From: a virus
Strand: one strand, 5' to 3'
Virus record (IMG/VR): IMGVR_UViG_3300036761_001965
Coordinates: 1-33,538 of that record
DNA: 33,538 bases
Shown: in pieces, positions 751 through 19,126 of the stretch
Layout of the letters: every line of letters begins with the position of its first letter
Position numbering within the stretch: the stretch's first letter is position 1
Notes under the pieces: generated by a model
What the model was told of the DNA's origin: nothing
What the model saw: the letters and a program-made list of their open reading frames with translations, nothing else
Databases searched by the model: none
Made by a program: the position numbers and the translations under genes

Positions 751-888
751 ATGCTAACCGATCCGCGTGAAACCTATCTGATCGCGTTGCGGAGATCGGA
801 TAGGGGGGGGACGGTCCCCGCAATTTCCGAAACGCCCAACGCGGAAAACACGCCAAACACCCGAGAAAAACGCGGTTTTCTGCGTTAG
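751..888 (+). pseudogene. Short ORF running into a dispersed repeat; probably a gene fragment
   Basis: An ATG at 751 with GAGGTG 4-9 nt upstream opens a 45-codon frame that begins MLTDPRETYLIALRRSD. From about codon 18 onward the frame is made entirely of the palindrome-rich repeat at 803-956. A related but different peptide is read from the second copy of that repeat near 6553. The simplest reading is that the 5' end of a small gene, with its own ribosome binding site, was interrupted by insertion of the repeat. It could still be translated as a short chimeric peptide. Confidence 0.35.
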
Positions 889-956
889 GGCGAACGTCCG
901 AAATAGGCGTGTTCGGGCCGCGTTTGGGTGTGTTTGAAACGCTGTAAAACGCAGGG
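803..956. repeat. REP-like palindromic repeat, copy A
   Basis: Copy A of a dispersed non-coding repeat; copy B is at 6553-6706 in the same orientation. Both begin with a G-rich/C-rich near-palindrome ending in GTCCCCGCAATT, continue with closely spaced AACGC and AAACAC motifs (including AACACGCCAAACACCCGA in both copies), have a central AAAAACGCG palindrome followed by GCGTTA, and end with CCGCGTTT and a TGAAACGC-N-GTAAAACGCA block. The two halves are imperfect inverted repeats, so the element can fold into a long hairpin. The copies differ by substitutions and about 11 bp of extra sequence in the centre of B. It may be a REP/MITE-type element or an iteron-like protein-binding region. Confidence 0.7.
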
Positions 957-975: not shown

Positions 976-1911
976 ATGACTAAAAGCATTACCCTGATTC
1001 TGAGTCTCATCTTGATCGCCGTCATCGTGCTGGTGGCGAACTCGGCCGCCGGCAACTTCGCCCCCGAGAAACAAGCTCAGGCGACGGCCGTCACCTTGCA
1101 GGCTGAAGCCGACGCGGCGCGGGCGGCCATGAATCTGAAGTATGATGCCCTGCGCAAGGAAATCATGACCCGCGCGCGCGCCGAGCGCGATCGGCAGATC
1201 GAGATCAACAAAGCCGAGACCCTGCGCATCGGCGAACTGAATACGCTCAACGCCGAGTATGCGGCGAAACTAGCCGTCATCCAGAAAGACATCACGACGA
1301 CCAACGCCGAGTATGCGGCGAAACTAGCCGTCATCCAGAAAGACATCACGACGACCAACGCCCTGGCGACCGGACTGCAAATTCTCATCACGGGGATCGC
1401 CATCGCCCTGGTGCTGATCGCCTTCGCCGGCGTGACCTATGCGCGCAACCGCGCCCAGACCGTGCAGGTCGGGGACACGACCATCATCCTGAAGGGCGAT
1501 ACCATCTTCCAGCCGGAGAATTCGCTCGCGCCCTACATGGCCTCCGACGATCTGCCGCGTTGGCTGAAATGGCTCTATCAACTGGACGCCTATCGGGCGT
1601 TACGGCGCGCCGCCCCATCCGCCGCCCGTTGGCAGCAGGTCCAGGAATCCCGCGCGGCCCTCGAGCCGCACTTCACGGCGCCGCAGGTGCAGAGCCCGGC
1701 GGCGATCCTGGCATTGAAGCAGGAGCAGACCCGGCGCATCGGCTTGCTGGCCAGGCGCATGCAGGGCAAAGAGGCCAGGCAGGCCGTGAGCGAGTTAAAG
1801 TCAACGCCGGCCTTCGACGAGGCGGCGTTCGGGGGTCTCGAAATCGGCTGGCTGCCGGAGTTGGAAGCCGGCAGCCAGAAAATTCTAAAGGATTTGGCGG
1901 AGGTCTCATGA
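976..1911 (+). CDS. Two-TM coiled-coil membrane protein
   Basis: A 311-residue protein; AGGAGG at 965-970 lies 5 nt before the ATG. Residues 5-22 form a hydrophobic N-terminal segment and residues about 133-154 a second one. Between them is a charged, Ala/Glu/Lys-rich helical stretch predicted to be coiled coil and probably extracytoplasmic. Inside it an 18-residue unit starting NAEYAAKLAV is perfectly duplicated. After the second TM is a cytoplasmic domain of about 155 residues, first strand-rich, then helical. It overlaps the next membrane gene by ATGA, and an FtsK-like ATPase follows. A membrane-anchored spacer or scaffold for that ATPase is inferred from context only; no family was recognised. 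Confidence 0.75.
   Translation: MTKSITLILSLILIAVIVLVANSAAGNFAPEKQAQATAVTLQAEADAARAAMNLKYDALRKEIMTRARAERDRQIEINKAETLRIGELNTLNAEYAAKLAVIQKDITTTNAEYAAKLAVIQKDITTTNALATGLQILITGIAIALVLIAFAGVTYARNRAQTVQVGDTTIILKGDTIFQPENSLAPYMASDDLPRWLKWLYQLDAYRALRRAAPSAARWQQVQESRAALEPHFTAPQVQSPAAILALKQEQTRRIGLLARRMQGKEARQAVSELKSTPAFDEAAFGGLEIGWLPELEAGSQKILKDLAEVS
1249..1356 (+). repeat. Perfect 54-bp tandem duplication inside the coiled-coil gene
   Basis: Bases 1249-1302 and 1303-1356 are identical, followed by the first 6 bases of a third copy. Each unit encodes 18 residues of the coiled coil and keeps the frame. Perfect identity, including third codon positions, points to a recent slippage or unequal exchange event, so copy number may vary between relatives. 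Confidence 0.95.
1597..1625 (+). repeat. 29-bp perfect direct repeat, copy 1 (inside the coiled-coil gene)
   Basis: This 29-base stretch, beginning GCGTTACGGCGCGCC, is identical to 6634-6662. Here it encodes residues 208-217 (ALRRAAPSAA) of the two-TM protein; there it lies in non-coding repeat copy B. Both copies have the same orientation and are 5,037 bp apart, with the 5553-6512 integrase ending about 120 bp before copy 2. It may be an attachment-site core, or sequence copied from one site to the other. Confidence 0.8.
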
Positions 1912-2657
1912 AACGATTACTCGGCATCACCCTATTGCTCGCGTTGCTTTTTCCGGGCACGGCGCTAGCCCAGGACACGACGACGCCGACGCAGCTGCAA
2001 GCCGAGGCCCAGCAGGCGGCGAACCAGGCTGGATCATTGCAGGGGCAGGCCGCCGGACTGCGCGCCCAGGCCAGTGGTCTGGATCAACAGGCTGCTCAAT
2101 CTCAACAGCGAGCGCAGCAGCTGCTGGCGCAGGCGGCGCAACTGGCTGCCAATCAGGCGGCGATCGGAGTGGCCCAGCAGGCCCAGCAGGCGGCCGGCGA
2201 AGCTAAGGCGTTGTACGATCAGGCGGCCCGGCTTGAGAGCCAGGCCAAGACCCTGGACGCCCAGGCTGAACAGCAGTGGCGGCTGGCCTCATTCAAAATG
2301 ACCCAGGCCCTCGCTCTCGCCGCGCATCTGACGCAGGCGGCACTGGTGAATACGACTCAGCAGTCGTTGAATGCCGCCCGGCTGAGTGGGCAGGTCTACG
2401 AGCAGGGCCATACGATCGTCATGCTCAATAACCAGCGCGATCAGGCCAGCCGTTTGCTTCTGGCCGAGGGGCTATTGTCGCTCGTCGTCATTGTCGTCCT
2501 GGCGTGGCTGCTGGTCCGCCGGCACCAGGAACAAATCAATCACCTCACCGCGGTATTCGCCAAGACGACGCCGGCGAAAGACACGACGGCCGTCGTGAAG
2601 GATAGCAATGTCAGCACTTACCTCATTCTCAAAGAGGTTGCAGATGGAACTCGTTAA
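1908..2657 (+). CDS. Signal-peptide, Ala/Gln-rich coiled-coil protein with one TM
   Basis: A 249-residue protein starting in an ATGA overlap with the preceding gene. Residues 1-21 look like a Sec signal peptide (MKRLLGITLL..., with a cleavage site ALA|QD). Residues 27-180 are dominated by Ala and Gln with heptad-like spacing, as in long coiled coils or murein-lipoprotein-like rods. Residues 184-203 form a TM helix followed by a basic stop-transfer (VRRHQ) and a cytoplasmic tail of about 45 residues. The expected topology is an extracytoplasmic rod anchored at its C-terminus. Its end overlaps the ATPase gene. Together with the 976-1911 product it could form the membrane part of a complex served by the ATPase; this is inferred from gene order. 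Confidence 0.75.
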   Translation: MKRLLGITLLLALLFPGTALAQDTTTPTQLQAEAQQAANQAGSLQGQAAGLRAQASGLDQQAAQSQQRAQQLLAQAAQLAANQAAIGVAQQAQQAAGEAKALYDQAARLESQAKTLDAQAEQQWRLASFKMTQALALAAHLTQAALVNTTQQSLNAARLSGQVYEQGHTIVMLNNQRDQASRLLLAEGLLSLVVIVVLAWLLVRRHQEQINHLTAVFAKTTPAKDTTAVVKDSNVSTYLILKEVADGTR

Positions 2658-4107
2658 AGCTAACCAGCAGCGCGCCCTCACGGCGCAACTCCAGACCGAT
2701 GGGCTGCGCTTTGCCAATCTCGCGCGCGAAGCATTCCGCTTCCATGATCGGTTGAGCCATCCGAATAAAGATGGCACGTTCTTCACGCCCCGCATCAGCT
2801 GGGTCCATTTCTCGGACGAGCCAGAGACGGGGCGGACGCGCTTCGCGGTGCTCGTGGTCGATCCCAATGCCCTGCATCATGTGCCGCTGGCTCACTTCGA
2901 CGCGCGCGCGCTGGAACTGCTGAAGGTGCAGCTGCGGTACCCGGTCTTTCGCGTGCCGGCGGAGGCCCTCGCCCAACTCTATCATCTCTCGTCCGATCGG
3001 GCCGAGACGATGGTTGCCTACCTGGTCGATCTGCTGCCACAAAAGCGCGTGCTGCCCAAGCAGGTCGATCTATCCACGACCTTGCTCAAGGGCACGCTGA
3101 TGATCGGCACGGACGGCCGGCAGCAGATCGGCGGCACGCTGCAGGATCTGCGCTCGATCATGATCGCGGGGGCGCCGGATAGCGGCAAGTCCACGCTGCT
3201 GCGCTCGCTGGCGTTCCAGGCCGGACAACAGGGCTGGCAGGTTTACCTGGCCGAGCCGGACACTTCGCACACCTGGCAGCGGGAAGCCTGGCTGCGCGTG
3301 CCGGGCGTGGTCGACGTGCGCAATGATGAGGCGGGTATTCTCGCTATGATCGGCGCGATCGAGGCTGAGGTCGCGCGCCGGTCGGAATGCTTCACGCAAT
3401 ATGCTCAGGCGCATGACGGCATCCCGCCCGAAGACAGCGCGCAGTATACGCAGCTGACCAGCGAGCCGATGCCGCCGATCTTGTTCGGCATCGACGAATA
3501 CCTCGACTTTCGGCACGCGCTCTTTGCGGATGTGCTGGAAACGGTCACGCGCAAGTATCGGAAGTATGGCTTGCTGACGTTGGTGGCGGCGCACAACTGG
3601 CAGGCGCAGAGTATCAGCTCGTCGTTCGCCAGCCTACTGCATACCCGCATCTGCCTGCACGTGGACGATCCCTATATCGGGCAGGCCACGCTCTATCGCA
3701 ACTATCACTATGGCAAGCAGGCGGTGGGTCTCGACGTGCGGGGCAGGGGACTGACGATGATCAATGGCCGGATGACCGAGTTCCAGTGTTACCGCCTGCC
3801 GTCGGAGAGGTTCGCGACGGTGCTGCGCCCGCTGACGGCGGCGCCGGCGGAGACGCCCGATGGCATCGACTGGCCACTGGTCAAGCGCATGGTCGATTGG
3901 TCGATGGATGAGCAGCGTAAAGGTGATCTAGGAAAGTTCAGCGTGCGCGGGGTGTGCGGGGCGTTCAAGGCTGAGATCAGCTCGTCTGATTTCACTCTGT
4001 TAGCCAAGCGGCTGCAGAGCCAGGGCTATCTGTCGCAGGCCGCGGCGAATGATGTGCGCATGGTTACCGATAAATTGGCGAAGAAGGTGGCGTATGAACT
4101 TCGATAA
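2644..4107 (+). CDS. FtsK/HerA-superfamily ATPase (DNA translocase-like)
   Basis: A 487-residue P-loop ATPase without TM segments. Visible motifs are Walker A GAPDSGKST (residues 176-184), Walker B ILFGIDE (D284, E285) and a later LLTLVAAHNW segment typical of the FtsK/SpoIIIE/TraB group, where a sensor residue follows strand 4. The C-terminal 90 residues look like a small helical, winged-helix-type domain. The start at 2644 has AGAGG 6 nt upstream and overlaps the previous gene by 14 nt; an alternative ATG at 2608, with GAAGGA upstream, would add 12 residues. Such enzymes pump DNA or drive DNA or protein transfer in plasmids, integrative elements and some phages. Coupling to two membrane coiled-coil genes suggests membrane recruitment in trans. 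Confidence 0.8.
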   Translation: MELVKANQQRALTAQLQTDGLRFANLAREAFRFHDRLSHPNKDGTFFTPRISWVHFSDEPETGRTRFAVLVVDPNALHHVPLAHFDARALELLKVQLRYPVFRVPAEALAQLYHLSSDRAETMVAYLVDLLPQKRVLPKQVDLSTTLLKGTLMIGTDGRQQIGGTLQDLRSIMIAGAPDSGKSTLLRSLAFQAGQQGWQVYLAEPDTSHTWQREAWLRVPGVVDVRNDEAGILAMIGAIEAEVARRSECFTQYAQAHDGIPPEDSAQYTQLTSEPMPPILFGIDEYLDFRHALFADVLETVTRKYRKYGLLTLVAAHNWQAQSISSSFASLLHTRICLHVDDPYIGQATLYRNYHYGKQAVGLDVRGRGLTMINGRMTEFQCYRLPSERFATVLRPLTAAPAETPDGIDWPLVKRMVDWSMDEQRKGDLGKFSVRGVCGAFKAEISSSDFTLLAKRLQSQGYLSQAAANDVRMVTDKLAKKVAYELR

Positions 4108-4543
4108 GTTGCTGGGGAACGTCGCTTCGGCGATCGACGTCGCCGATCGGATCGAGGGCATCGTCAGTGGCTCCCGCTATTCCGATTGGTCCGGCGCGAT
4201 CGAGCGGCATGGTCCGCTGGGCGTGTTCGTCGAGTTCGTGAGTTATCTATCCGGTTACAACTCGCCGAAATTAAAAGTGAGTCACTTCAATGTCGGGTCA
4301 TCCTGGAGTGGCATCCGGATCGAGTGGTTGCTGCGGCGCCACGGTATCGTCTTGTGGGACCGCGGTCTCGAGGGGGACGATCTCTATTTCCGCGTGAAAC
4401 GCCGGCAACTCAACTGGGCTGAGTATGTGATGCTGCGGGCCGGGGTGCCGGTGGCGGTACGCAATCGACTGAATGAAGCCTGGGCCGCCCGGCATCCCGC
4501 CGGCGACGAGCCGGCCCGGCACAGTAAGCGGCGGAGAGGCTAA
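4094..4543 (+). CDS. Hypothetical protein coupled to the FtsK-like ATPase
   Basis: A 149-residue protein whose ATG at 4094 lies inside the last codons of the ATPase gene, with AAGGTGG just upstream. The N-terminal third is helical. The middle (about residues 60-115) alternates strands and helices and contains WSGIRIEWLLRRHGI and a basic KRRQLNWAEY segment. The C-terminus is strongly basic (HSKRRRG). The basic character and its coupling to a DNA translocase suggest nucleic-acid binding, perhaps as a partner of the ATPase, but I do not recognise the family. Confidence 0.6.
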   Translation: MNFDKLLGNVASAIDVADRIEGIVSGSRYSDWSGAIERHGPLGVFVEFVSYLSGYNSPKLKVSHFNVGSSWSGIRIEWLLRRHGIVLWDRGLEGDDLYFRVKRRQLNWAEYVMLRAGVPVAVRNRLNEAWAARHPAGDEPARHSKRRRG

Positions 4544-4551
4544 TCACTATC

Positions 4552-4746
4552 ATGAAACCACTTGACACTGGCACGCTGAGCACTCTCAGCGAGGAAGAGA
4601 TCGCCGCACTGAAAACCGTCATCGACGATCTGCGCAAGGGCCACGGAAACATTCAGTATCTCTTCCAGCTGCTCGCCTACCTCGTCCGGCTCTTGCGCCG
4701 GCGTGCTGCGGCGTCGAAAGCGCTAAAACGCCCTAAAGGGGGCTGA
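4552..4746 (+). CDS. Small helical hypothetical protein
   Basis: A 64-residue protein with two likely helices: an acidic one (LSEEEIAALKTVIDDLRK) and an amphipathic one rich in Leu, Tyr and Arg (IQYLFQLLAYLVRLLRRR), ending in a basic tail. The second helix could be membrane-peripheral or a dimerisation helix. There is no strong Shine-Dalgarno sequence in the 8-nt gap after the previous gene (nearest GAGAGG about 13 nt upstream). The next gene starts 1 nt after its stop. Function is unknown. Confidence 0.5.
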   Translation: MKPLDTGTLSTLSEEEIAALKTVIDDLRKGHGNIQYLFQLLAYLVRLLRRRAAASKALKRPKGG

Positions 4747-4747
4747 C

Positions 4748-5218
4748 GTGCCAAAGAAAGCCAAATCCAAGTCTTCGCGCCGTTCCCGCGGAACACAACG
4801 CGTACTCGCTACGTTCACATTTCCTGATAGTCCAGATGGTTCACAAACGTTCACAAGCCTGGTTGTGGCGATTAAGACCTGTGAATCGCTTAAAGGCGTG
4901 TTGGAGTTGCTGGACTTGACCCTGGAACGCTTTGGCGACCTTCTGAGCGAGACGCCGCAGCTTAAGCGCACGGAGACGCATGTCAGCAAACCCTACGCTT
5001 CGATGCTGTGCGCCGGCAAACGCCTGGTGTCGCCGCGCATGACGAAAGCGATTGAGCTGGTCATCGGGCAGCAACTCACCGAGATCGCCGGCGAGCCGAT
5101 CGGTCTGCGCCTCACGAAGAATTCGCCGTGGCATTTCTCGATCGCCAAGATCTGCGCGAAACACGGCCGCTATGAAATCGACGGGCGGCGTAAGCACTGC
5201 CCGCAATGTGGAAAATAA
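4748..5218 (+). CDS. Small regulator candidate: HTH-like core plus C-terminal zinc finger
   Basis: A 156-residue protein with a GTG start at 4748 and AAGGGGG upstream, nearly abutting the preceding gene. The N-terminus is very basic (KKAKSKSSRRSRG). Residues about 78-103 contain VSKPYASMLCAGKRLVSPRM, which resembles the recognition half of a Cro/XRE-type helix-turn-helix. The last 21 residues carry C136, H139, C151 and C154, a CX2H/CX2C zinc-binding set ending in CPQCGK. A DNA-binding regulator of the recombinase or transfer genes is plausible; both assignments are by eye. Confidence 0.6.
   Translation: MPKKAKSKSSRRSRGTQRVLATFTFPDSPDGSQTFTSLVVAIKTCESLKGVLELLDLTLERFGDLLSETPQLKRTETHVSKPYASMLCAGKRLVSPRMTKAIELVIGQQLTEIAGEPIGLRLTKNSPWHFSIAKICAKHGRYEIDGRRKHCPQCGK
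4782..4794. repeat. Variant of the iterated near-palindromic 14-mer
   Basis: GTTCCCGCGGAAC is one base shorter than the 14-mer found at 7874, 15340 and (reverse complement) 31772. It lies within the 5' end of the 4748-5218 gene and has GTTCC/GGAAC arms. Confidence 0.5.
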
Positions 5219-5243: not shown

Positions 5244-5492
5244 ATGAGCACCATCATCAGGTACGTGAGCGAGGCGGTGGCGCGCGCCACGGCGGAGTCG
5301 CTCAAGGTCAAGCCCATCAACGTGTACAGTCCCGATCTCGTCACGCGGGCGGAACTTGAAAAGGTGGTGGATGAATACAAGCAGCAGATCGCCGGCTTGC
5401 GGGCTTTGCCGGAACGAGCGGCTTCACGTCCATTTGAGCAACCAGGCTGGAATGAAGACCAGGACGATTCGGACGACGATGACGAGTTTTAA
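5244..5492 (+). CDS. Small hypothetical protein with acidic tail
   Basis: An 82-residue protein starting at ATG 5244 with AGGTGGAG at 5231-5238. Residues 1-45 look helical with a basic patch (a helix from VSEAVARATAESLKVK onward). Residues 43-55 could be coiled coil (ELEKVVDEYKQQ in the middle region). The C-terminus ends in a run of Asp/Glu (DDSDDDDEF). It lies directly upstream of the integrase promoter, a position often held by a small recombination directionality factor, but no MerR/HTH motif is visible, so no role is assigned. Confidence 0.55.
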   Translation: MSTIIRYVSEAVARATAESLKVKPINVYSPDLVTRAELEKVVDEYKQQIAGLRALPERAASRPFEQPGWNEDQDDSDDDDEF

Positions 5493-5521
5493 GAACACCT
5501 GTGCTTTTTCCGCTGTATAAT
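5493..5521 (+). promoter_or_regulatory. Promoter of integrase 1 with degenerate SOS-type half site
   Basis: TATAAT at 5516-5521 is followed by the integrase start about 30 nt later. Upstream, GAACACCTGTGC (5493-5504) matches the perfect GAACACCTGTTC box found before 7787 except for one base in the right arm. The stretch between box and -10 is also similar (CGCTGTATAATGGA versus CGCGGTATAATGGA). The repetition of the whole arrangement is the main support. No TTGACA-like -35 is seen at ideal spacing here. Confidence 0.6.
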
Positions 5522-5552
5522 GGACTGTAACATTGATTAGAGACCATTGACC

Positions 5553-6512
5553 ATGCCCAAGCCAAACGCCCTCATCATTGCCCCGCAGCGTGACGTCGAA
5601 GCCCAGGCCGATCTGCGCGCCCTGATCGCCGACTGGCACGCCGCGCTCGACCTGCGCGTGAACACCGCAGAACTCTCCGCCGCCTCGCGCCGCACCTATA
5701 CCGAAGGCGCCCAGCACTTCTTTGACTGGTGCTATGGCTATTCCGCTTTGACCGACGATGTGATCCGCGATTGGATCGCCGATCTGCGCGGCGCCGCCTT
5801 CAAGCCTGCCACGATCAATACCTGGCTGTCCGGGCTGCGCGCGTTTTTCGCCTGGGCCGTGGGCGCGCGCCGCATCCCCTACAACCCCGCCGCCGGCATC
5901 AAAAGCGCCAAGCGCACCGACAGCCGCAAACACAAGCGCGAGATGCTAACCAGCGCCGAGATCCGCCGCGTGCTGGCCCTGCCCGAGGAGACCCCGGTCG
6001 GCAAGCGCGATCGGGCGATCCTCTATCTGATGGCCTACACGGCGGCGCGCACGATCGAGGTGCACCGCGCCAACCTGGATCAGCTGCGCACGGAGTCCGA
6101 TCGGCTCGTCCTCAAGGTGCAAGGCAAAGGCCGGGAGGAGGCGGACGAGATCATCGTGATTACTCATCCCCAGGCCGAGGCGGCGCTGCACGATTGGCTG
6201 AGTGTCCGCGGGAACAAGCCGGGACCGCTGTTTACCTCGCTCTCGCCGCGCACGCGCGGCGGCCGGCTGTCGCTGTCGGCCATCCGCTGGACCGTGAAGT
6301 CGTACTATAAGGCGGCCGGCGTGCGCGGGGCCAACAAGACGACGCACAGTCTGCGCCACTCCGCGATCAGCAACGCGATCAATAACGGAGCACCGGTTCA
6401 AAAGGTGCGTGCGATGGCGCGGCATCAGTCGATCGATACTACGATGATCTACGTACATGAGGCCGATCGGGTGACTAATCCGGCTGAGCTGTTTATCGAC
6501 TATGGCGAGTAG
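5553..6512 (+). CDS. Tyrosine recombinase/integrase 1
   Basis: A 319-residue site-specific recombinase. Residues about 20-105 form the SAM-like core-binding domain (ASRRTYTEGAQHFFDWC and WLSGLRAFFAWAV). The catalytic domain follows, with R166 (AARTIE), H265-x-x-R268 (HSLRH), H291 (ARHQS) and nucleophile Y300 (MIYVHE); a Lys in KVQGKGR fits the beta-hairpin lysine. All key residues are present, so an active enzyme is expected. ATG 5553 is used; an in-frame TTG at 5547 is the alternative. No good Shine-Dalgarno sequence is seen. It has its own promoter just upstream, and the 29-bp repeat copy at 6634 lies 3' of it, as attP often does for integrases. Confidence 0.92.
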   Translation: MPKPNALIIAPQRDVEAQADLRALIADWHAALDLRVNTAELSAASRRTYTEGAQHFFDWCYGYSALTDDVIRDWIADLRGAAFKPATINTWLSGLRAFFAWAVGARRIPYNPAAGIKSAKRTDSRKHKREMLTSAEIRRVLALPEETPVGKRDRAILYLMAYTAARTIEVHRANLDQLRTESDRLVLKVQGKGREEADEIIVITHPQAEAALHDWLSVRGNKPGPLFTSLSPRTRGGRLSLSAIRWTVKSYYKAAGVRGANKTTHSLRHSAISNAINNGAPVQKVRAMARHQSIDTTMIYVHEADRVTNPAELFIDYGE

Positions 6513-6552: not shown

Positions 6553-6706
6553 AGGGGTGGGGGCTGTCCCCGCAATTCCCAAAACGCCAAACGCGGGAAA
6601 CACGCCAAACACCCGATAAAAACGCGTTTTTCAGCGTTACGGCGCGCCGCCCCATCCGCCGCGTTTTGCCCGTGTTTTGGCCGCGTTTGAAACGCGGTAA
6701 AACGCA
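6553..6706. repeat. REP-like palindromic repeat, copy B
   Basis: This is the second copy of the repeat at 803-956, in the same orientation, filling most of the 270-bp gap between the two recombinase genes. Its centre contains a perfect 14-bp palindrome, AAAAACGCGTTTTT (6618-6631). Compared with copy A, the segment right of the palindrome is replaced and carries the 29-bp sequence shared with 1597-1625. The outer parts hold AAACGC/GCGTTT motifs at close spacing on both sides. Confidence 0.7.
6634..6662 (+). repeat. 29-bp perfect direct repeat, copy 2
   Basis: Identical to 1597-1625. It starts 3 bp after the central palindrome of repeat copy B and is absent from the matching place in copy A, so it was gained in B (or lost from A). 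Its place 121 bp after the stop of integrase 1 makes it a candidate recombination core. Confidence 0.75.
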
Positions 6707-6782: not shown

Positions 6783-7742
6783 GTGCTGGCCGAACAGATC
6801 GAGCAATATCTGACTTCCCTGGTCACGCTACGCTCGCCACAAACCATCTCGTGGTATCGCAAGCGCCTCGCCCCCCTGCGGTCTCTCCCTCAGAACATGT
6901 GTTCGATCACCCTGCTCGATCTGCAAGCGGTCTACGCCGGCCTCGCTCAGCGCCAGACCCAATACCTCAATCACCCGTCAGGCCGCGCCCCCCTCGACAA
7001 ACCGCTCGCGCCGGCGACCCTGCGCGGCTACGTCCGGGCCTGGCGCGCCTTCTTCAACTGGGCCGTCGATGGCGGCGTCATCGGGGTCAGCCCAGCGCGT
7101 AAACTCAAACTCCCGCCTATCGCCAAGCAGCCGCCCAAGGCGATCAGCTGCGCCGACAAGGACCGCCTGCTCGCCGCGGCGCGCCTGACCTCGTCCCGCG
7201 ATTACGCGATCGTCTGCATCCTGGCCGATAGCGCCTGCCGCGCCGGCGGGTTGTGCCATATCACGCTCGACAATCTCGATCTTGATCGTCAGCAAGCGAT
7301 CGTGATCGAGAAAGGTCAGACGCGCTTCCTCCTCTTCACCGATCACACCGTCGCCGCGCTGCGTGACTACCTGCGCGACCGGCCTGAGACGCCCTACCGC
7401 GAGGTATTCATCGGCCACAAGGGGCTGCCCCTCCAACCCGGCGGGATTCATGCGCTGCTGGATCGCCTGGCCGACGGCGCCGGCGTCCAGGGCCGACACA
7501 ATCCGCATGCCTTCCGGCACGGCTGGGCGCGGGCGGCGCTGGCCGGCGGCGCGGACCTTAGCGACGTGGCGCACGTGCTGGGCCACGCGCAGATCCAGAC
7601 GACGTTCGAGTTCTACGGGCGCTGGGACGCGACGGAGTTACACGACATCCACGATCGCTACACGTGGCTGGCGGATGAAGTAATCCGTTCTTTGCCGGAC
7701 GAAGAATCTATCCCGCTTGAGGCTGACCTGGTTCTGGAGTAA
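6783..7742 (+). CDS. Tyrosine recombinase/integrase 2
   Basis: A 319-residue recombinase, clearly different in sequence from integrase 1. The N-terminal core-binding domain spans about residues 1-100 (TLRGYVRAWRAFFNWAVDGG at its end). Catalytic residues are R153 (ACRAGG), H242-x-x-R245 (HAFRH), H268 (LGHAQ) and Y278 (FEFYGRW). The GTG start at 6783 is the only reasonable start near the -10 box and would be leaderless. The product is XerC/D-like in size. Tandem pairs of distinct tyrosine recombinases occur in transposons of the Tn554 type and in some integrative elements, where both are needed; whether this pair works together is unknown. Confidence 0.92.
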   Translation: MLAEQIEQYLTSLVTLRSPQTISWYRKRLAPLRSLPQNMCSITLLDLQAVYAGLAQRQTQYLNHPSGRAPLDKPLAPATLRGYVRAWRAFFNWAVDGGVIGVSPARKLKLPPIAKQPPKAISCADKDRLLAAARLTSSRDYAIVCILADSACRAGGLCHITLDNLDLDRQQAIVIEKGQTRFLLFTDHTVAALRDYLRDRPETPYREVFIGHKGLPLQPGGIHALLDRLADGAGVQGRHNPHAFRHGWARAALAGGADLSDVAHVLGHAQIQTTFEFYGRWDATELHDIHDRYTWLADEVIRSLPDEESIPLEADLVLE

Positions 7743-7744
7743 TC

Positions 7745-7773
7745 TTGAACACCTGTTCTAAACGCGGTATAAT
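7745..7773 (+). promoter_or_regulatory. Promoter overlapped by a LexA/SOS-type operator
   Basis: TTGAAC (7745-7750) and TATAAT (7768-7773) are separated by exactly 17 bp, a near-consensus housekeeping promoter. GAACACCTGTTC (7747-7758) overlaps the -35 box and fits the GAAC-N4-GTTC core of the LexA operator known in Bacillus and relatives. A repressor bound there would block RNA polymerase. The degenerate copy before integrase 1 suggests coordinated, damage-responsive control. The host LexA specificity is not known, so the regulator could also be a phage repressor. Confidence 0.65.
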
Positions 7774-7786
7774 GGAGGCTACTGGA

Positions 7787-8044
7787 ATGCCTGCCATGTC
7801 CGACCGAATCACCCGGCCCCCGCCGCGGGATAACGCCTCTCGAAAAGGTTCCACGCGCTGGGGGCCGGCCCGCGTTCCCGCGGAAACCCTACCCCGCCGG
7901 CGGTCCCCCGGACTCCCCTTCCACCGCGCGCCCCTCGAACGCCTCGCCGATCGTCCTTTCGAAAGGATCGGGGAACCGCTCCTCGTGAGTCGTCCATTGC
8001 GCCAGTTCCTGCTGCAGCAGGGTGACGATATGATCGGCTACTAG
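7787..8044 (+). CDS. Small Arg/Pro-rich basic ORF under the SOS-type promoter
   Basis: An 85-codon ORF starting at ATG 7787 with GGAGG at 7774-7778 (8-nt spacing). The protein is very basic, rich in Arg and Pro in the first two thirds, with a likely C-terminal helix (LRQFLLQQGDDMIGY). It has no recognised domain. Its TAG shares the CTAG at 8041-8044 with the stop of the convergent peptidase gene. The odd composition and the GC-rich palindromes inside make coding status uncertain; the promoter and ribosome binding site argue for it. A regulatory RNA is the main alternative. Confidence 0.4.
   Translation: MPAMSDRITRPPPRDNASRKGSTRWGPARVPAETLPRRRSPGLPFHRAPLERLADRPFERIGEPLLVSRPLRQFLLQQGDDMIGY
7874..7887. 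repeat. Iterated 14-mer, copy
   Basis: GTTCCCGCGGAAAC, identical to 15340-15353 and to the reverse complement of 31772-31785. The arms are almost palindromic around CCGCGG. Confidence 0.6.
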
Positions 8045-9940: not shown

Positions 9941-11425
9941 TCATTGGGCGGCGCGGTTGATCGAATTGATCTGACCCGCGCTGTCCGTCAATATCGTGGC
10001 ATCGGTGATCGGTAGGAATTCGATATTGCTGACTTCGACGGTCGCCGACGTCGTGCCGTCTGCGTTGAACGTGCGCGTGATGCGGATGACAAACAGCTCC
10101 TCGTCCAGGTCGATCCAGTCGTAGGCGCTGCCATTGCGGACGACGCTGCCGCGATAGACGACCCGGACCTTGTCGCCGGCGTGCAGCGCCGAGGGGCAGC
10201 GCAAGACGCTCAAGGCATAGGTGACCTGCGCGATCTTGTGCTGATCGAGATAGCGCCGCGCTCGGTTGTAAAGCTGCATGGCTCCCTGCGCCCACGATCC
10301 GCCTGAGAGATCGGTTAACGTGATGTCGTTAAAAATGATGACGGCTTCATGCGGGTCGGCCGCCCAGGCCGCCGCATCCTCCAGGTAAAGCTGGGGGTTG
10401 CCGATGAGCGTGGCGCCGTTGGGCGGCGGATCGGGGATGTCGCCCGAGCCGCGCACCGACACCCGGTTGATCCCGTTGAGGCCCGCGACGACGGCGTCGT
10501 ATCCGATCGGTTGGGCGAGATCGTTCGGATCGGTGCACCACAGGATTTGTTGGATCGGCCAGATCATAAAGCCGGCATTATTGACGACGTGATAGATCTC
10601 GTTTTTATCCCCTTCGTAGCCGGTAATTTCGGTCTGCGCGCCGCGCCGGCCCGGCATGACGTGAATGTTGGCCCAGCGCGTATCGGCCCGATCGAGGTGA
10701 AAGAGTTTCACTTTCGCCCGGTTGACGTTACCGTCGTCGGCGCCGGCCCCCCACGGAATGATCCGGTTCACGACGGGCGCGCGATCGGAAGTGACTTGTA
10801 GCGAGCTGATGATTGCGATCTGGGGATTGGTGTCCTGCCCGGCCAGCGCCTGCGCGACATTGGTGAAACGAATCGCCGAGAGATTACCGAAAGCGCCGAC
10901 CGTCAACTCGCGCAGGGTGCTGCTCATGCGGAAGTGCTTGCCCGGCAGCTGGCTGATCAATTTAATGAGCGCCGCCAGGCAGGAATCGCCGTCAAAGCGC
11001 CCGTAGAAATTTCCGAGATCGCCATCGACGGCGCCAACGGTCCAGCCGGCCGGCGCCAGGATGGCCGGCAGGACTTCGCTGCTGATCGGACTGTTGTCGA
11101 AAAAGCACCACCAGCCCATGCTGTAGCGCAACAACTCGCCCAGTAGATTAGTGCCGTTGACCAGGCGGGTGGGCGTGGCCGCCGTTGCGTCGATCGTGTC
11201 CCTACCGACATTGCCATAGACGTCGAGGCCGTCACTCGACGCGAGATGGCAATAAGCGGCTTGCTGCACGTAGGTGGCGGCGCGATAGTCGGTCGCCGGC
11301 AGCGTAAATTGGAGCGGGCCGGCCTCGTCGAGAGATTCCGTGATCGAGATCGAGAGCACGTTTTGCAGCGGGCCGTCGCCGATCTTGTGCCAGGCGCCGT
11401 CATAGAGATCAACGTGAAAGGTCAT
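9941..11425 (-). CDS. Tail hub/baseplate protein, Gp37-like
   Basis: A 494-residue protein starting MTFHVDLYDGAWHKIGDG in an ATGA overlap with the Dit-like gene. The start, with a strand-rich region and a phrase of the type ITESLDEAGPLQFTLP, resembles tail proteins of the siphovirus ReqiPepy6 Gp37-like/prophage tail group, which form the hub at the tail tip. The C-terminal third includes LHAGDKVRVVYRG and FNADGTTSATVEVSN segments expected in OB-like or beta-rich hub domains. The order tape measure, Dit-like, Dit-like, hub supports the role. No peptidoglycan hydrolase domain is seen. Confidence 0.75.
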   Translation of the reverse strand: MTFHVDLYDGAWHKIGDGPLQNVLSISITESLDEAGPLQFTLPATDYRAATYVQQAAYCHLASSDGLDVYGNVGRDTIDATAATPTRLVNGTNLLGELLRYSMGWWCFFDNSPISSEVLPAILAPAGWTVGAVDGDLGNFYGRFDGDSCLAALIKLISQLPGKHFRMSSTLRELTVGAFGNLSAIRFTNVAQALAGQDTNPQIAIISSLQVTSDRAPVVNRIIPWGAGADDGNVNRAKVKLFHLDRADTRWANIHVMPGRRGAQTEITGYEGDKNEIYHVVNNAGFMIWPIQQILWCTDPNDLAQPIGYDAVVAGLNGINRVSVRGSGDIPDPPPNGATLIGNPQLYLEDAAAWAADPHEAVIIFNDITLTDLSGGSWAQGAMQLYNRARRYLDQHKIAQVTYALSVLRCPSALHAGDKVRVVYRGSVVRNGSAYDWIDLDEELFVIRITRTFNADGTTSATVEVSNIEFLPITDATILTDSAGQINSINRAAQ

Positions 11426-12465
11426 AAGTAAGTATTCCACCAGGTCAGGCTGCCCGACCAACCGGACGCGCCGGCCACGCTGACCGTGATCGCGTTGTCG
11501 CCGGGCAGCAGCGTCAACCAATTTTCCTGACCCGCGCCAAAGGTAAAACCCTCGTAAGCGCCGGCGCCGGCTTTCGTGACCAGCCAGTTCCCTGTATCGA
11601 TTTTCAGGAGTTGACCACTCGTTGCCGAGCCGGTCCAGGTGCAGGTATTGCCGTTCGTGCCATTCGTCAGGGTCAGAGAAGTGAGCGTTCCCGACGGGGT
11701 GATCTGTAGCACGACCGCCGCCGGCATATTGCCGGCGTTGGTGAGGGTGAGGGGATAACTCATCGAGTTGCTAAGCGATGTTCCGCTTTGGGTCTCCCCA
11801 TACCATAGCCCCTCGCGCAAATAAAAATCCAATTCGACAGGCAAATGCAGTTTGTTGACGTAGCTTTCTGGGTATTTTCCTCGAATCGGTTTGGCCCAGG
11901 CCCAGCGGTGATCGCCATTCCGCAGCAGCCCCCAGAGTTTCGATTCACCCACGGCGACGACCGAGCGCTTCAGCACTTCCAGAGCGTTCTCGACATTGAG
12001 ATAGGCGTCCGGGTGCGCGATGAGATAACCGACCGCCGATCCGCTTCCGATCGAGGGCAGGCTGGCGGTTTGCGGATCAGGCAGTTTCATCCAGGTAGCA
12101 CTGAACACTTGCTCGATGTCGTACTCGTAGAGATGATCGTTAAAGGTGAAGCGGATCTTGTCGCCGGCGTAGCAGAATGATTGGAAGGCGGTGCCGAGCC
12201 CGTAAATTGCTTTGGTACCCTGCGTCCCGGTATAGATCGTCCCCGCGCCGGCCACGTAGTCGTTGCGCCAGGCCAGTTCAAATTTCTTCGTGACGGTGAT
12301 CGCCATCTGCGGATTGGCCGCCGCGCCCACGTAGTCGAACGCGCCGGCCATGCCGCTCACCTGCGAGACCGCCGACGGCCGTTGAATCTGCCAATCGTCC
12401 ACGGCTTGCAGCTCGGGGAAGACGTAGCCAGTTGCCCAGTTAGATCCGAATCGAGAGATAAGCAT
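11422..12465 (-). CDS. Distal tail (Dit)-like protein, paralogue 2
   Basis: A 347-residue beta-rich protein starting MLISRFGSNWATGYVFPE, with AAGGA 6 nt upstream. It is a clear paralogue of the 12484-13365 product: N-terminal ISRFGSNW/IARFGNTW, central LPVELDFYLREGLWYGE/LPVELSFYCREGLWYGE, and C-terminal SGWSGSLTWWNTYL/SSWSGSLIWWDTYQ. The C-terminal half has a galectin/CBM-like beta-sandwich character (TWTGSATSGQLLKIDTG). Position right after the tape measure and before the hub is typical of Dit, which forms the ring joining tail tube to tip. It is about 54 residues longer than its paralogue. Confidence 0.7.
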   Translation of the reverse strand: MLISRFGSNWATGYVFPELQAVDDWQIQRPSAVSQVSGMAGAFDYVGAAANPQMAITVTKKFELAWRNDYVAGAGTIYTGTQGTKAIYGLGTAFQSFCYAGDKIRFTFNDHLYEYDIEQVFSATWMKLPDPQTASLPSIGSGSAVGYLIAHPDAYLNVENALEVLKRSVVAVGESKLWGLLRNGDHRWAWAKPIRGKYPESYVNKLHLPVELDFYLREGLWYGETQSGTSLSNSMSYPLTLTNAGNMPAAVVLQITPSGTLTSLTLTNGTNGNTCTWTGSATSGQLLKIDTGNWLVTKAGAGAYEGFTFGAGQENWLTLLPGDNAITVSVAGASGWSGSLTWWNTYL

Positions 12466-12483: not shown

Positions 12484-13365
12484 TCATTGATAGGTATCCC
12501 ACCAGATCAAACTCCCTGACCAGCTACTCGACCCCGCCACCGTGATCGTGAGCGCGTTGCTGCCCGGCGCGAGTTGTCCCCAGCACGATTGATTATCCCC
12601 GTAGCTCAGGCCGGCATAGCCGTTACCGCCGCCGCGCTGCACGCGCCAGGCGCCCGTGTCGATGCGCAGCAGCTGACCCATGGCCGCGGCGCCGGTCCAG
12701 GTAAAGATGTCGCCGTTCGTCGTGTTGGCAAAGACCAGCTGCGTCAAAGTACCGACTGCGGATGTGACTTGCAATTGAAAGAAGGCCGGCCGGTTGCCGT
12801 CGTTGATCGCGGTGTAGGTGGAGGGTAGCGCCGAAGTGAGTGACAGACCCTGCTGCTCTTCGCCATACCACAGGCCCTCACGGCAATAGAACGAAAGTTC
12901 TACTGGAAGCCGTAGTCGCGTTGGAACAGATTCCGCGAACCTCCCACTGATCGCTTTGGCCCAGGCCCAGCGCCGCTGTTCGTCGCGGGTGAGCGCCCAC
13001 AGCTTCGACTCGATGTGCGCCAGGGTACAGCGGAGCAAGTAGTCGAGGGTGCGATCGAGGTCCACGAGCTGCCAGCTCGAGCCGTTAATTTGACCCCAGA
13101 GTGTGCCAGCGCCGAATACTTCACCCGTGCCATAGAGGATGCGCGCGTGTGTCGTCGGGACGAGATCAGGCCCCAAGACCCAGGACTTGTGAACCATGAG
13201 CGGCGTCGCCGGCCCGGCCGCTTGGCCCTCGCTGGAGAATCCGCCGGCTGCCCCGCCGACGCGCACGATCGTATCGGTCAGCTCCGTGGCCCAATCATCC
13301 GCGCCCTTGACTTCGCCAAAGGGGCAGGCGGTCTCCCAGGTGTTGCCGAAGCGCGCAATGATCAT
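12484..13365 (-). CDS. Distal tail (Dit)-like protein, paralogue 1
   Basis: A 293-residue protein starting MIIARFGNTWETACPFGE in an ATGA overlap with the tape measure gene. It shares N-terminal, central and C-terminal blocks with its 11422-12465 paralogue, with a shorter middle. The first Dit-like gene after the tape measure is the expected classic Dit; the second may form an additional ring or a carbohydrate-binding collar. Both end in a tryptophan-rich strand pair (SGSLIWWDTY). Which of the two contacts the hub cannot be told from sequence. Confidence 0.7.
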   Translation of the reverse strand: MIIARFGNTWETACPFGEVKGADDWATELTDTIVRVGGAAGGFSSEGQAAGPATPLMVHKSWVLGPDLVPTTHARILYGTGEVFGAGTLWGQINGSSWQLVDLDRTLDYLLRCTLAHIESKLWALTRDEQRRWAWAKAISGRFAESVPTRLRLPVELSFYCREGLWYGEEQQGLSLTSALPSTYTAINDGNRPAFFQLQVTSAVGTLTQLVFANTTNGDIFTWTGAAAMGQLLRIDTGAWRVQRGGGNGYAGLSYGDNQSCWGQLAPGSNALTITVAGSSSWSGSLIWWDTYQ

Positions 13366-16394: not shown

Positions 16395-16997
16395 ACGCCA
16401 AGTCCCCGATCAGGTCGAGTACCGTATCCAGCCACTCCGCCTGATCGCTGCAAGTTCCGCGCCAGCCTAGTTTGTCTTCCGCCGCTTCATACGCCGAAAA
16501 AATCTGATAGGTGTCCCATGCGATCGAGAGGCGCCGCAATCCCCGGTAATCCTGATCGCGCAAGCCGCCGCTCGCCGGCAGGGTGTGCCAGCGCTGCAAG
16601 TCGAAGGCTGTAATTAAGGCCGTAGGCGCGGAAACTCGGTTTCCGGTTCGGTCTCTATCTCCACGGGCATACCGCACCACGCCCGCCAGGCTTTTGGGTC
16701 CAGCATCTTCAAGGTCTGCATATAGGCCCTGACCTGCGTGCTGGCCCACAACACGGCTTGCCCGTCGAGGCCGCGCAGATTGGTGAGCGGCACGGCATTG
16801 TGCAGCGAATGCCAGTTTTCGATCAGGCCGGCCGCCGCCGCCGCGCTGACCACCACGCCGGCGTATTGAATGTCCGTCTGTTCGGCGTGCTTATCGAGCG
16901 CCGCTTGCAGCGCCGTGTCGTAGTCCTCCAACTGCCCGTAGTTCGGGTAATTGGGCATCTCAAAATGCAGGCCGAAGCCCTCCTCGTCGAACATCAT
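16381..16997 (-). CDS. Tail assembly chaperone fusion made by -1 frameshift (gpGT-like)
   Basis: The open frame at 16381-16749 lies -1 relative to the chaperone gene at 16614-16997 and has no convincing start of its own. A slip on CCCAAAA (16698-16692) would join the first 102 residues of the short chaperone (through DPK) to 103 residues beginning SLAGVVRYARG, giving about 205 residues. The extension ends in an acidic helical part (EWLDTVLDLIGDLAYGDN). In lambda, gpG and gpGT made this way keep the tape measure soluble and recruit tube subunits. The gene lies between the tail tube and tape measure genes, exactly as in lambda-like phages. Confidence 0.8.
16614..16997 (-). CDS. Tail assembly chaperone, short form (gpG-like)
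   Basis: A 127-residue protein. The start at 16997 (ATGA overlap with the tail tube stop, GGAGG 8 nt upstream) is preferred to the longer in-frame start at 17024. It contains helical segments (YDTALQAALDKHAEQ, VSAAAAAGLIENW, QVRAYMQTLKML) and an acidic C-terminus (PVEIETEPETEF) that is replaced when the ribosome slips. Position and size fit the short tail assembly chaperone. The TAA stop is at 16614-16616. Confidence 0.8.
   Translation of the reverse strand: MMFDEEGFGLHFEMPNYPNYGQLEDYDTALQAALDKHAEQTDIQYAGVVVSAAAAAGLIENWHSLHNAVPLTNLRGLDGQAVLWASTQVRAYMQTLKMLDPKAWRAWCGMPVEIETEPETEFPRLRP
16692..16698 (-). other. Programmed -1 ribosomal slippery site CCCAAAA
   Basis: In the zero frame the site reads C CCA AAA, the X XXY YYZ pattern that allows both tRNAs to re-pair after a one-base backward shift. 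It lies inside the region where the two chaperone frames overlap (16614-16749), and the -1 frame is the one that stays open to 16381. Confidence 0.8.
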
Positions 16998-18028
16998 AGG
17001 GTCGCCTCCGAAGTGCGCAGCCACAGGCCGGCCGAAACGCCGGTCACCTGGTCCAGCTGACCAGCCGCCTTGATCGGCAGCATGGGAGTTTTGTTATCGC
17101 CGCTGATCTCGGGCAGGTCCATCGGGTTGATGTACAGCGATGGGATGCAGATATGCGCCTCGTAATGGTTCGTCGTCTCGATGCCGGGGCCTTGCAGGAT
17201 CATCTCCAGCGCCATCGCCGTGCCGGCGCGCCCGGCGTCGTAGAACGTGCTGCTGTAATCGAGCCAGGACATATCGAAGGTGACGTCGATATTGCGGTCG
17301 CCCGGCGATTGTTCGATGAGGGTCGGGTCCATCGTCAGGCCGTAGGCATCCGCGTCCAGGTTGTTGGAAATCTTGATCGAGAGGTTGCGCAGCTTGATCA
17401 CTTCGTCCGCATCCGCGAGGCTGATCTTTTTAGTGGCGCCGTCCAGATCGGTCGTCCCGCCGATGTTGATGATCGCGTCGTAGAAAAGGAAGCCGCGATT
17501 GAGCGCCGGATAGGCCGGCGTGCCCAGGAGCGCCGCGGATGACGTGGTGCCATCCTCGAAGGTCCCGCCGCACTTGGCCTCGTCCTTGGCGATCATATCG
17601 AAGGTCAGGCCGATTTGCTGCTTGGTGATCGCCTCGATCGTGACGGCGTTGACGGCGGCGCCCAGGATGTTCACCCCGAAGCTGCTGTTATATTGCTGCT
17701 GGAGGCTGAGCGTGTCGAATAAGGCCGCGTCGTTATACAGCAGGGCGTGATCGTAGGAAGCCCCGGCGGCGGTCGTCGTGAGGTCTGTCATAAACGAGTG
17801 GAAGAGCGTGCCGACATTGGTAAACCACCAGGGCAATTTCACCGGTCCGTTGACCGGCTTCGCGCCCAGGACGTTCTGCTGAATGTCACGCCCCACCCCC
17901 GTGGTGCGATAGGGCAGCACGTCGCGCTTGCTGCCGACCTGCGCCGAGTTGACCCACAGCCATTTCGCCGGCGTGGTCCAGGTGTTGTTCGCGCTTTCCT
18001 TGGAATACACAAAATGCTTGAGTGCCAT
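16994..18028 (-). CDS. Major tail tube protein, copy 1 of tandem pair
   Basis: A 344-residue protein, with AAGGAG 7 nt upstream of the ATG. It is almost identical to the 18092-19126 product over the N-terminal 80 residues (HFVYSKESANNTWTTPAKW onward) and the C-terminal 120. The differences cluster at about residues 81-95 and 150-215. The length is typical of tail tube proteins carrying an extra domain. It lies just upstream of the chaperone gene, the standard place for the tube subunit. Whether both copies build the tube or one is a decoration variant is not decided by sequence. Confidence 0.8.
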   Translation of the reverse strand: MALKHFVYSKESANNTWTTPAKWLWVNSAQVGSKRDVLPYRTTGVGRDIQQNVLGAKPVNGPVKLPWWFTNVGTLFHSFMTDLTTTAAGASYDHALLYNDAALFDTLSLQQQYNSSFGVNILGAAVNAVTIEAITKQQIGLTFDMIAKDEAKCGGTFEDGTTSSAALLGTPAYPALNRGFLFYDAIINIGGTTDLDGATKKISLADADEVIKLRNLSIKISNNLDADAYGLTMDPTLIEQSPGDRNIDVTFDMSWLDYSSTFYDAGRAGTAMALEMILQGPGIETTNHYEAHICIPSLYINPMDLPEISGDNKTPMLPIKAAGQLDQVTGVSAGLWLRTSEATL

Positions 18029-18091: not shown

Positions 18092-19126
18092 CTAAATAGT
18101 CGCCTCCGAAGTGCGCAGCCATAGACCGAACGACACGCCCGTCGCCTGATGGAGTTGGCCGGTGGCTTTAACCGGCAGCATCGGCGTTTTGTTGTCGCCG
18201 CTAATTTCGGGCAGGTCCATCGGGTTGATATACAGCGATGGGATGCAGATATGCGCCTCGTAATGGTTCGTCGTCTCGATGACGGGGCCTTGCAGGATCA
18301 TCTCCAGCGCCATCGCCGTGCCGGCGCGCCCGGCGTCGTAGAACGTGCTGCTGTAATCGAGCCAGGACATATCGAAGGTGACGTCGATATTGCGGTCGCC
18401 GGGGCTTTGCTCGATGAGGGTCGGGTCCATCGTCAGGCCGTAGGCATCGGCGTCCAGGTTGTTGGAAATCTTGATCGAGAGGCTGCGCAGCTTCGCCACG
18501 GTGGTCGGAGCGCTCAACGACAATTTTCTATCTGTCCCGCCCAGCGCCGGCGTGCCGCCGATATGGATCAGCGCGTCGTAGAACAGAAAGCCGCGGTTCA
18601 GCGTCGGATAGACCGCTGGACTGATCGCGGCGACGGAAGCAGCGCCACTCTCAAACGTGCCGCCGCATTCCGCCTCGTCCTTGGCGATCATGTCGAAGGT
18701 CAGGCCGACTTGCTGTTTCGTGATCGCGTCGATGGTGACGGCGTTAACCGCCGCCCCCAGGACGTTGACCCCGAAGCTGCTGTTATACTGCTGCTGGAGG
18801 CTGAGCGTGTCGAATAAGGCCGCGTCGTTATACAGCAGGGCGTGATCATACACTCCGGTGGCCACCGTCGCCGTGTGGATCGCCGTCATGAACGAGTGAA
18901 AAAGCGTGCCGACGTTGGTAAACCACCAGGGCAGTTTCACCGGACCGTTGACGGGCTTCGCGCCCAGGACGTTCTGCTGAATGTCACGCCCCACCCCCGT
19001 GGTGCGATAGGGCAGCACGTCGCGCTTGCTGCCGACCTGCGCCGAGTTGACCCACAGCCATTTCGCCGGCGTGGTCCAGGTGTTGTTTGCGCTTTCCTTG
19101 GAATAGACAAAATGCTTAATCGCCAT
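18092..19126 (-). CDS. Major tail tube protein, copy 2 of tandem pair
   Basis: A 344-residue protein, equal in length to the 16994-18028 product, with AAGGAG 8 nt upstream. Conserved blocks include the region around PVNGPVKLPWWFTNVGTLFH and the C-terminal NPMDLPEISGDNKTPMLP. The variable parts (residues about 81-95, and 150-215 with GTPALGGTDRKLSLSAPTTV versus the other copy's GTTDLDGATKKISLADADEV) look like surface loops. It is the first tube gene read after the tail terminator and therefore probably the ancestral position. Confidence 0.8.
   Translation of the reverse strand: MAIKHFVYSKESANNTWTTPAKWLWVNSAQVGSKRDVLPYRTTGVGRDIQQNVLGAKPVNGPVKLPWWFTNVGTLFHSFMTAIHTATVATGVYDHALLYNDAALFDTLSLQQQYNSSFGVNVLGAAVNAVTIDAITKQQVGLTFDMIAKDEAECGGTFESGAASVAAISPAVYPTLNRGFLFYDALIHIGGTPALGGTDRKLSLSAPTTVAKLRSLSIKISNNLDADAYGLTMDPTLIEQSPGDRNIDVTFDMSWLDYSSTFYDAGRAGTAMALEMILQGPVIETTNHYEAHICIPSLYINPMDLPEISGDNKTPMLPVKATGQLHQATGVSFGLWLRTSEATI

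Follow-up and report, generated by a model that had tools for sequence, protein, structure and literature searches.

FtsK-type DNA pumps are known from mobile genetic elements, where such a pump typically has a membrane domain of its own, and TcpA is itself a membrane protein. The TcpA coupling proteins provide a precedent for motors of this type, and Replic_Relax corresponds to the MobC relaxase family (PMC5357655). In Streptomyces, the membrane protein SpdB2 binds to TraB (PMC4170104). FtsK, Replic_Relax and ParM have been described as a plasmid-prophage gene set in Bacillus phages, where they have been read as maintenance genes (PMC9658697, PMC7685451). Two B. subtilis phages that are 96% identical and both viable differ by an FtsK/Replic_Relax insert, which phage 268TH007 carries, so such cassettes behave as mobile cargo (PMC9476937).

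We analyzed a stretch of 33,538 nt, hereafter the window (one strand, 5' to 3'; IMG/VR virus record IMGVR_UViG_3300036761_001965, positions 1 to 33,538), which is a partial siphovirus genome of 33.5 kb. Its late genes lie on the minus strand and run convergent with a plus-strand region that holds the four genes P1 to P4, followed by three small ORFs and a pair of tyrosine recombinase genes. P1, P2 and P3 probably constitute a membrane-anchored DNA-translocase module of the plasmid or ICE type, carried by a temperate siphovirus and serving to move or retain the DNA of the element. The anchor appears here to be split into two proteins, in a layout repeated across phages and plasmid-like elements of the Chloroflexota, whose mobile elements have been little studied. 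The features of the window are:

803–953, plus strand: left copy of a direct repeat of about 150 bp, just upstream of P1 (79.6% identical to 6555–6706 over 152 bp, E 1.9e-33)
976–1911, plus strand: P1, 311-aa membrane protein with transmembrane (TM) segments 4–22 and 136–154 (ORF, perfect Shine-Dalgarno sequence, hydropathy)
1908–2657, plus strand: P2, 249-aa protein with signal peptide 4–22, Ala/Gln-rich rod and TM segment 185–203 (ORF, hydropathy, autocorrelation)
2644–4107 (alternative start 2608), plus strand: P3, soluble FtsK/HerA-type DNA translocase (Pfam, phage FtsK families, structure model, Foldseek)
4094–4543, plus strand: P4, 149-aa basic protein, pI 10.1 (ORF, Anaerolineae-wide family)
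4552–4746, plus strand: 64-aa basic ORF (ORF only)
4748–5218, plus strand: 156-aa ORF with a zinc-ribbon-like C-terminal end, CxxH...CPQC (sequence inspection)
5244–5492, plus strand: 82-aa acidic ORF (ORF only)
5547–6512, plus strand: tyrosine recombinase 1, likely start ATG 5553 (Phage_integrase 7.1e-24, PHROG integrase 2e-39)
6555–6706, plus strand: right copy of the direct repeat (comparison with 803–953)
6783–7742, plus strand: tyrosine recombinase 2 (Phage_integrase 3.3e-22)
8041–33425, minus strand: siphovirus late genes, namely two Dit genes, tape measure, tail, capsid, portal and terminase (PHROG matches)

The host probably belongs to the Anaerolineales/Chloroflexota group, because the named genomes with terminase relatives of more than 50% identity, such as that of Ornatilinea apprima (53%), are mostly from Anaerolineales or else from other members of the Chloroflexota. 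A chimeric contig is an unlikely origin of the window: there is no GC break at the junction, at about 7742–8041, and two other phages carry such a module, although an identical contig (L012) does not span the junction. The late region also contains two minor tail proteins in tandem (16994–18028 and 18092–19126, 88% identical), two Dit-like paralogues (11422–12465 and 12484–13365) and, at the contig end (32571–33538), a repetitive Ala/Val-rich ORF with a 204-bp spaced repeat that may have caused the assembly to stop.

Membrane proteins and motor of the module

The three genes with overlapping starts and the coupled basic gene that the first-pass annotation had placed at 976–4543 are all present as ORFs, with overlaps of 4, 14 and 14 bp. 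P1 starts at ATG 976 behind AGGAGGT and P2 at ATG 1908 behind GGAGGT, the two genes sharing an ATGA. The start of P3 is ATG 2644 behind GAGGT, within the end of P2, with ATG 2608 as an alternative, and that of P4 is most likely ATG 4094, within the end of P3, rather than ATG 4049.

P1 had been described as a coiled-coil protein with two TM segments; both segments stand, but the coiled-coil label is weak because the ectodomain lacks heptad periodicity. The protein is predicted to expose this helical ectodomain between the TM segments and to end in a cytoplasmic tail of about 150 residues. The ectodomain contains an 18-aa tandem duplication, encoded by a 54-bp tandem duplication (1243–1350, 96%) that yields two helical repeats and is apparently recent. 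P2 does have the signal peptide, rod and C-terminal TM segment ascribed to it, and its rod shows heptad periodicity (autocorrelation of +0.33 at 7); a cytoplasmic tail of about 45 residues is predicted to follow the TM segment. Proteins with the P1 architecture occupy the equivalent position in L256, L113, L205 and L314, and proteins with the P2 architecture precede the ATPase in L113, L205, L243, L256, L260 and L314. No profile matched P1 or P2 and no sequence homologue of either was detectable. Their counterparts in other modules are alike in architecture only, which weighs against the membrane-anchored pump; the case for both proteins is built on architecture, ribosome-binding sites and position.

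Sequence and structural modeling identify P3 as a translocase of the FtsK type, though a highly diverged one. Its Walker A (GAPDSGKST, residues 188–196) and Walker B (ILFGIDEY, residues 291–298) motifs are intact within a motor core spanning residues ~160–400, and it matches phage FtsK families (2.8e-8) as well as Pfam FtsK_SpoIIIE, in the latter case slightly below the curated cut-off (E 9.4e-5). A structure model built from a ten-sequence alignment has pLDDT values of mostly 70–87 for blocks within residues 180–360 and weak ends. The best solved matches found by Foldseek are TcpA of pCW3 (4.4e-13), followed by the FtsK motor (1.1e-12), in alignments that cover the core only, as indicated by query TM-scores of ~0.4. 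P3 would assemble as a hexamer, and its helical C-terminal domain (residues ~420–495) may bind DNA. Hydropathy revealed no TM segment in P3 or P4, and P3 thus fits its initial description as a soluble FtsK/HerA-type ATPase devoid of a membrane domain.

A tree of 44 motor cores groups P3 with the Chloroflexota sequences L205, L206 and L113 (support 100/98), apart from the cellular FtsK proteins of the same class (100/99) and from a Bacillota clade (100/100); P3 sits on a very long branch (2.81), which makes its precise position uncertain. Direct searches with P3 (tblastn) returned weak matches in Bacillota phages and plasmids, and in several of these the ATPase gene lies between upstream and downstream genes for a small TM protein and a Replic_Relax protein, respectively. 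Single-protein scans of viral and genome contigs with P3 or recombinase 1 yielded no match, nor did DNA patterns for Walker A and a P4 motif among viral contigs. A 4.3-kb match labeled 'Bacteriophage sp.' (L008) was dropped as it reads as a fragment of a cellular FtsK gene.

Recurrence in phages and plasmid-like elements of the Chloroflexota

A direct search with P3 alone at 1e-8 recovers family members in 3 of the 400 Chloroflexota genomes covered. A further search used a profile, A10, made from four sequences (P3, L113, L205 and L206, which renders P3's own score uninformative), and A10 separates a family of ~450-aa ATPases from cellular FtsK across 396 genomes of the class. Cellular FtsK also matches A10, so its tally of 389 genomes is not the size of the family.

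A membrane-protein ORF lies on the same strand directly upstream of the ATPase in 21 of 21 family members, in addition to the window, counting members with more than ~500 bp of upstream contig and without a TM segment of their own (five others are cut by the contig end). The ATPases of L207, L209, L210 and L211 instead carry their own N-terminal TM segment. A crude control puts the background frequency of upstream TM ORFs at 14/27, which is high and a point against the membrane-anchored pump; given that frequency, 21 out of 21 would have a chance probability of the order of 1e-6 if the loci were independent, which they are not fully. These observations support the view that membrane proteins and ATPase form a recurrent unit, and they favor the suggested recruitment of P3 to the membrane, since the family ATPases with enough upstream contig either follow a membrane-protein ORF or carry a fused TM segment. 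The series of fused TM segment, one membrane protein and two membrane proteins offers a direct handle on how such pumps are anchored.

The full layout, in which a protein with two or three TM segments is followed by a rod protein with a signal or lipoprotein signal and a TM segment and then by the ATPase, is present in two phages, G026 (L113) and G043 (L314), and in the genomes L205, L243, L246, L247, L256 and L260. The genes thus recur together elsewhere, and the full-length homologues of P3 and P4 argue against a chance arrangement. In L314, a holin-like ORF and terminase genes come immediately downstream of the module. L256 alone has all four genes, in the order P4, P1-like, P2-like, ATPase, and its ATPase is 26% identical to P3 over 492 positions (3e-21). 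In the reverse complement of L247, a second rod protein with signal peptide and TM segment follows the ATPase (2861–3808), which suggests that some modules have more than one rod subunit gene. Besides the window, a clear family member occurs in only G026 and G043 of 64 terminase-related virus records, many of them fragments. The module is thus an optional part of these phages, and this scarcity counts against the pump. The first-pass annotation did not know the layout as a described phage system: we did not find it described in the literature, but a related Bacillota phage cassette had already been noted (PMC9658697, PMC7685451, PMC9476937).

The inclusion of P4 as an integral part was not supported. 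Its family is a chromosomal one of the Anaerolineae, found in 52 of the 396 genomes of the class sample, usually away from such an ATPase and often near ThrRS, aspartokinase or cobT-like genes (named by sequence inspection). Most aligned chromosomal copies are 43–54% identical to P4, and the L256 protein adjoining its module is 33% identical (E 4e-19). A role as a conserved fourth core subunit was rejected as a module ATPase adjoins 0 of 20 other P4 loci among the matches listed; a separate, weak ATPase match is present at one P4 locus (L309). P4 has no match in Pfam or PDB, and we discarded its identification as a Replic_Relax protein given the lack of a Pfam match and of similarity to the phi18-2 protein; a single-sequence structure model was left out owing to its pLDDT of 41.7. 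These comparisons suggest that P4 is a gene of host origin that joined the module as an accessory, and since it stems from a host chromosomal family the core of the module comprises three genes. The chromosomal P4-family genes are often divergent from a gene for a 107–137-aa membrane protein with a tail resembling RPQ.V.QT..TP (L291–L310), an apparently undescribed conserved pair. The 156-aa ORF downstream of P4 has no family match and is possibly a DNA-binding regulator.

The neighbors of the family ATPases are, by sequence, genes of plasmids, phage-plasmids or integrative elements. An actin-like ParM gene lies beside the ATPase in seven loci (L113, L207, L245, L253, L258, L259 and L260) and ParA in two (L206 and L246), whilst nearby genes encode DnaA_N proteins (L113 and L205), Replic_Relax proteins (L255, 4.6e-23; L206, at the cut-off), an integrase (L206) and a DUF2637 membrane protein (L314). 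DUF2637 membrane proteins occur on actinobacterial plasmids. Such neighbors fit a transfer machine, as suggested earlier, or one of plasmid type. A point against the pump is that no relaxase, ParM, ParA, rep or secretion gene (T4SS genes included) was recognized among the ORFs of the partial window.

Readings of the function

The presence of the same gene set on plasmid-like elements of Chloroflexota makes a DNA transfer or maintenance machine likely. In the membrane-anchored translocase that we favor, P3 is the FtsK-like motor, as its homology shows, and P1 and P2 would be separately encoded membrane subunits whose cytoplasmic tails hold the P3 hexamer, a role that we propose because gene order is conserved and some family ATPases carry a fused TM segment. 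The extracytoplasmic helical rods of P1 and P2 may determine where in the envelope or septum the two proteins sit. P3 would engage the DNA of the element itself, perhaps using its C-terminal domain for loading, and pump this DNA at the membrane, so that an extrachromosomal form could be moved to a neighboring cell or segregated when the cell divides. An accessory role would fall to P4 and to the tyrosine recombinases.

One tentative form of this mechanism is a conjugation-like, T4SS-independent export of phage or element DNA between cells, by analogy with Streptomyces TraB and Spd. The best fold match of P3 is a conjugation coupling protein, Replic_Relax genes accompany L255, L206 and the Bacillota cassettes, L314 has its DUF2637 protein, and the binding of SpdB2 to TraB offers a parallel for the membrane partners; against this form, neither a relaxase nor a clt-like repeat was recognized in the window, which also lacks recognizable T4SS genes, and virions already serve phages for this purpose. 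If it operated in phages of filamentous Anaerolineae, a split-subunit dsDNA export machine could pass prophage or plasmid-prophage DNA from cell to cell along the filament without virions. We consider this version unlikely; if true, it would give a tailed phage a second, virion-independent and conjugation-like route of spread.

The other form, which we hold to be equally tentative, is maintenance of a plasmid-prophage, whose partition or dimer resolution would be aided by a split FtsK acting with the element's own tyrosine recombinase or with ParM or ParA. The ParM-like and ParA genes beside the relatives, the two recombinases adjoining the module in the window and the published interpretation of the FtsK/Replic_Relax/ParM set (PMC9658697, PMC7685451) are consistent with maintenance. 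No par gene was recognized in the window, integrases would equally suit an integrated prophage, and the nearly identical B. subtilis phages are viable with and without their FtsK cassette (PMC9476937), all of which speak against it.

The direct repeats bear on a further reading, compatible with any function, in which the 5.75-kb unit between them is a separate integrative element inserted in the phage with the module as its passenger. The two copies, rich in AAACGC motifs, are 5752 bp apart and enclose exactly P1 to recombinase 1, and most phages with 60–66% identical terminases, many of which are fragments, lack the module. We nevertheless find this reading doubtful: with an identity of only 79% over 150 bp, the repeats do not resemble fresh att sites, a module also occurs in two further phages of the group, and the repeat was not found in 396 genomes of the Anaerolineae class, a sample from which the host species may be missing. 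The same search, of limited weight for that reason, gave no sign of a common host repeat. The repeats could be insertion remnants, recombinase sites or regulatory repeats. A 29-bp segment inside the P1 coding sequence (1597–1625) is identical to 6634–6662 of the right copy. Separately, GAACACCTGTTCT-type palindromes, which resemble the Gram-positive LexA box, are found at 5493–5505, 7747–7759 and 6892–6904 (3 versus 0.08 expected); each of the first two immediately precedes a TATAAT-like box, the one at 5493–5505 lying upstream of recombinase 1 and the one at 7747–7759 downstream of recombinase 2.

Defense or superinfection exclusion, by a membrane ATPase complex acting on incoming DNA, is very unlikely in our view. 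P3 does match the PADLOC profile mad8 of MADS (E 6e-13) and HerA-type ATPases are known in defense, but the match is limited to the P-loop core (residues 183–355), no nuclease, methylase or other MADS component was recognized among the module ORFs, and the relatives adjoin par and rep genes. Protein export of type VII, in which a motor resembling EccC/EssC would work with membrane partners, is highly improbable. The best NCBIfam matches of P3, to EssC/EccC, speak for it but fall far under the cut-off; against it, P3 has a single motor domain, no other type VII gene was recognized and the fold search puts TcpA and FtsK first.

Comparison with described systems

P3 shares its motor fold with cellular FtsK/SpoIIIE, from which it differs by lacking a TM domain and by falling in a separate clade. 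As for HerA–NurA systems, no NurA nuclease match was detected among the module ORFs. TdtA of the Thermus element ICEth1 is, like P3, an FtsK-HerA ATPase of an integrative element, where it is membrane-associated and required for DNA donation (PMC5365140); its operon comprises NurA, a restriction enzyme and a methylase and has no membrane rods.

The TraB and Spd proteins of Streptomyces and AICEs resemble the module in combining an FtsK-like pump with variable small membrane proteins on integrative elements that carry an integrase (PMC3218068, PMC4170104). P3 itself does not match the NCBIfam plasmid_TraB family, of which its relatives show trace matches only, and a search for clt- or KOPS-like repeats revealed no over-represented octamer cluster in the window.

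The Bacillota cassette (small TM protein, FtsK, Replic_Relax) is organized by the same logic as the module, its gene starts overlapping too, and occurs in both temperate phages and plasmids. It has one membrane protein instead of two and Replic_Relax in place of P4, and its ATPase, ~20–26% identical to P3, belongs to another clade. TcpA, encoded by pCW3, Tn916-type ICEs and IMEs, functions alongside a relaxase and a T4SS, of which no gene was recognized in the partial window, and has its own membrane domain, whereas P3 has no TM segment; it is nonetheless the top structural match of P3 and, like it, an FtsK-type protein with a single motor domain carried by mobile elements.
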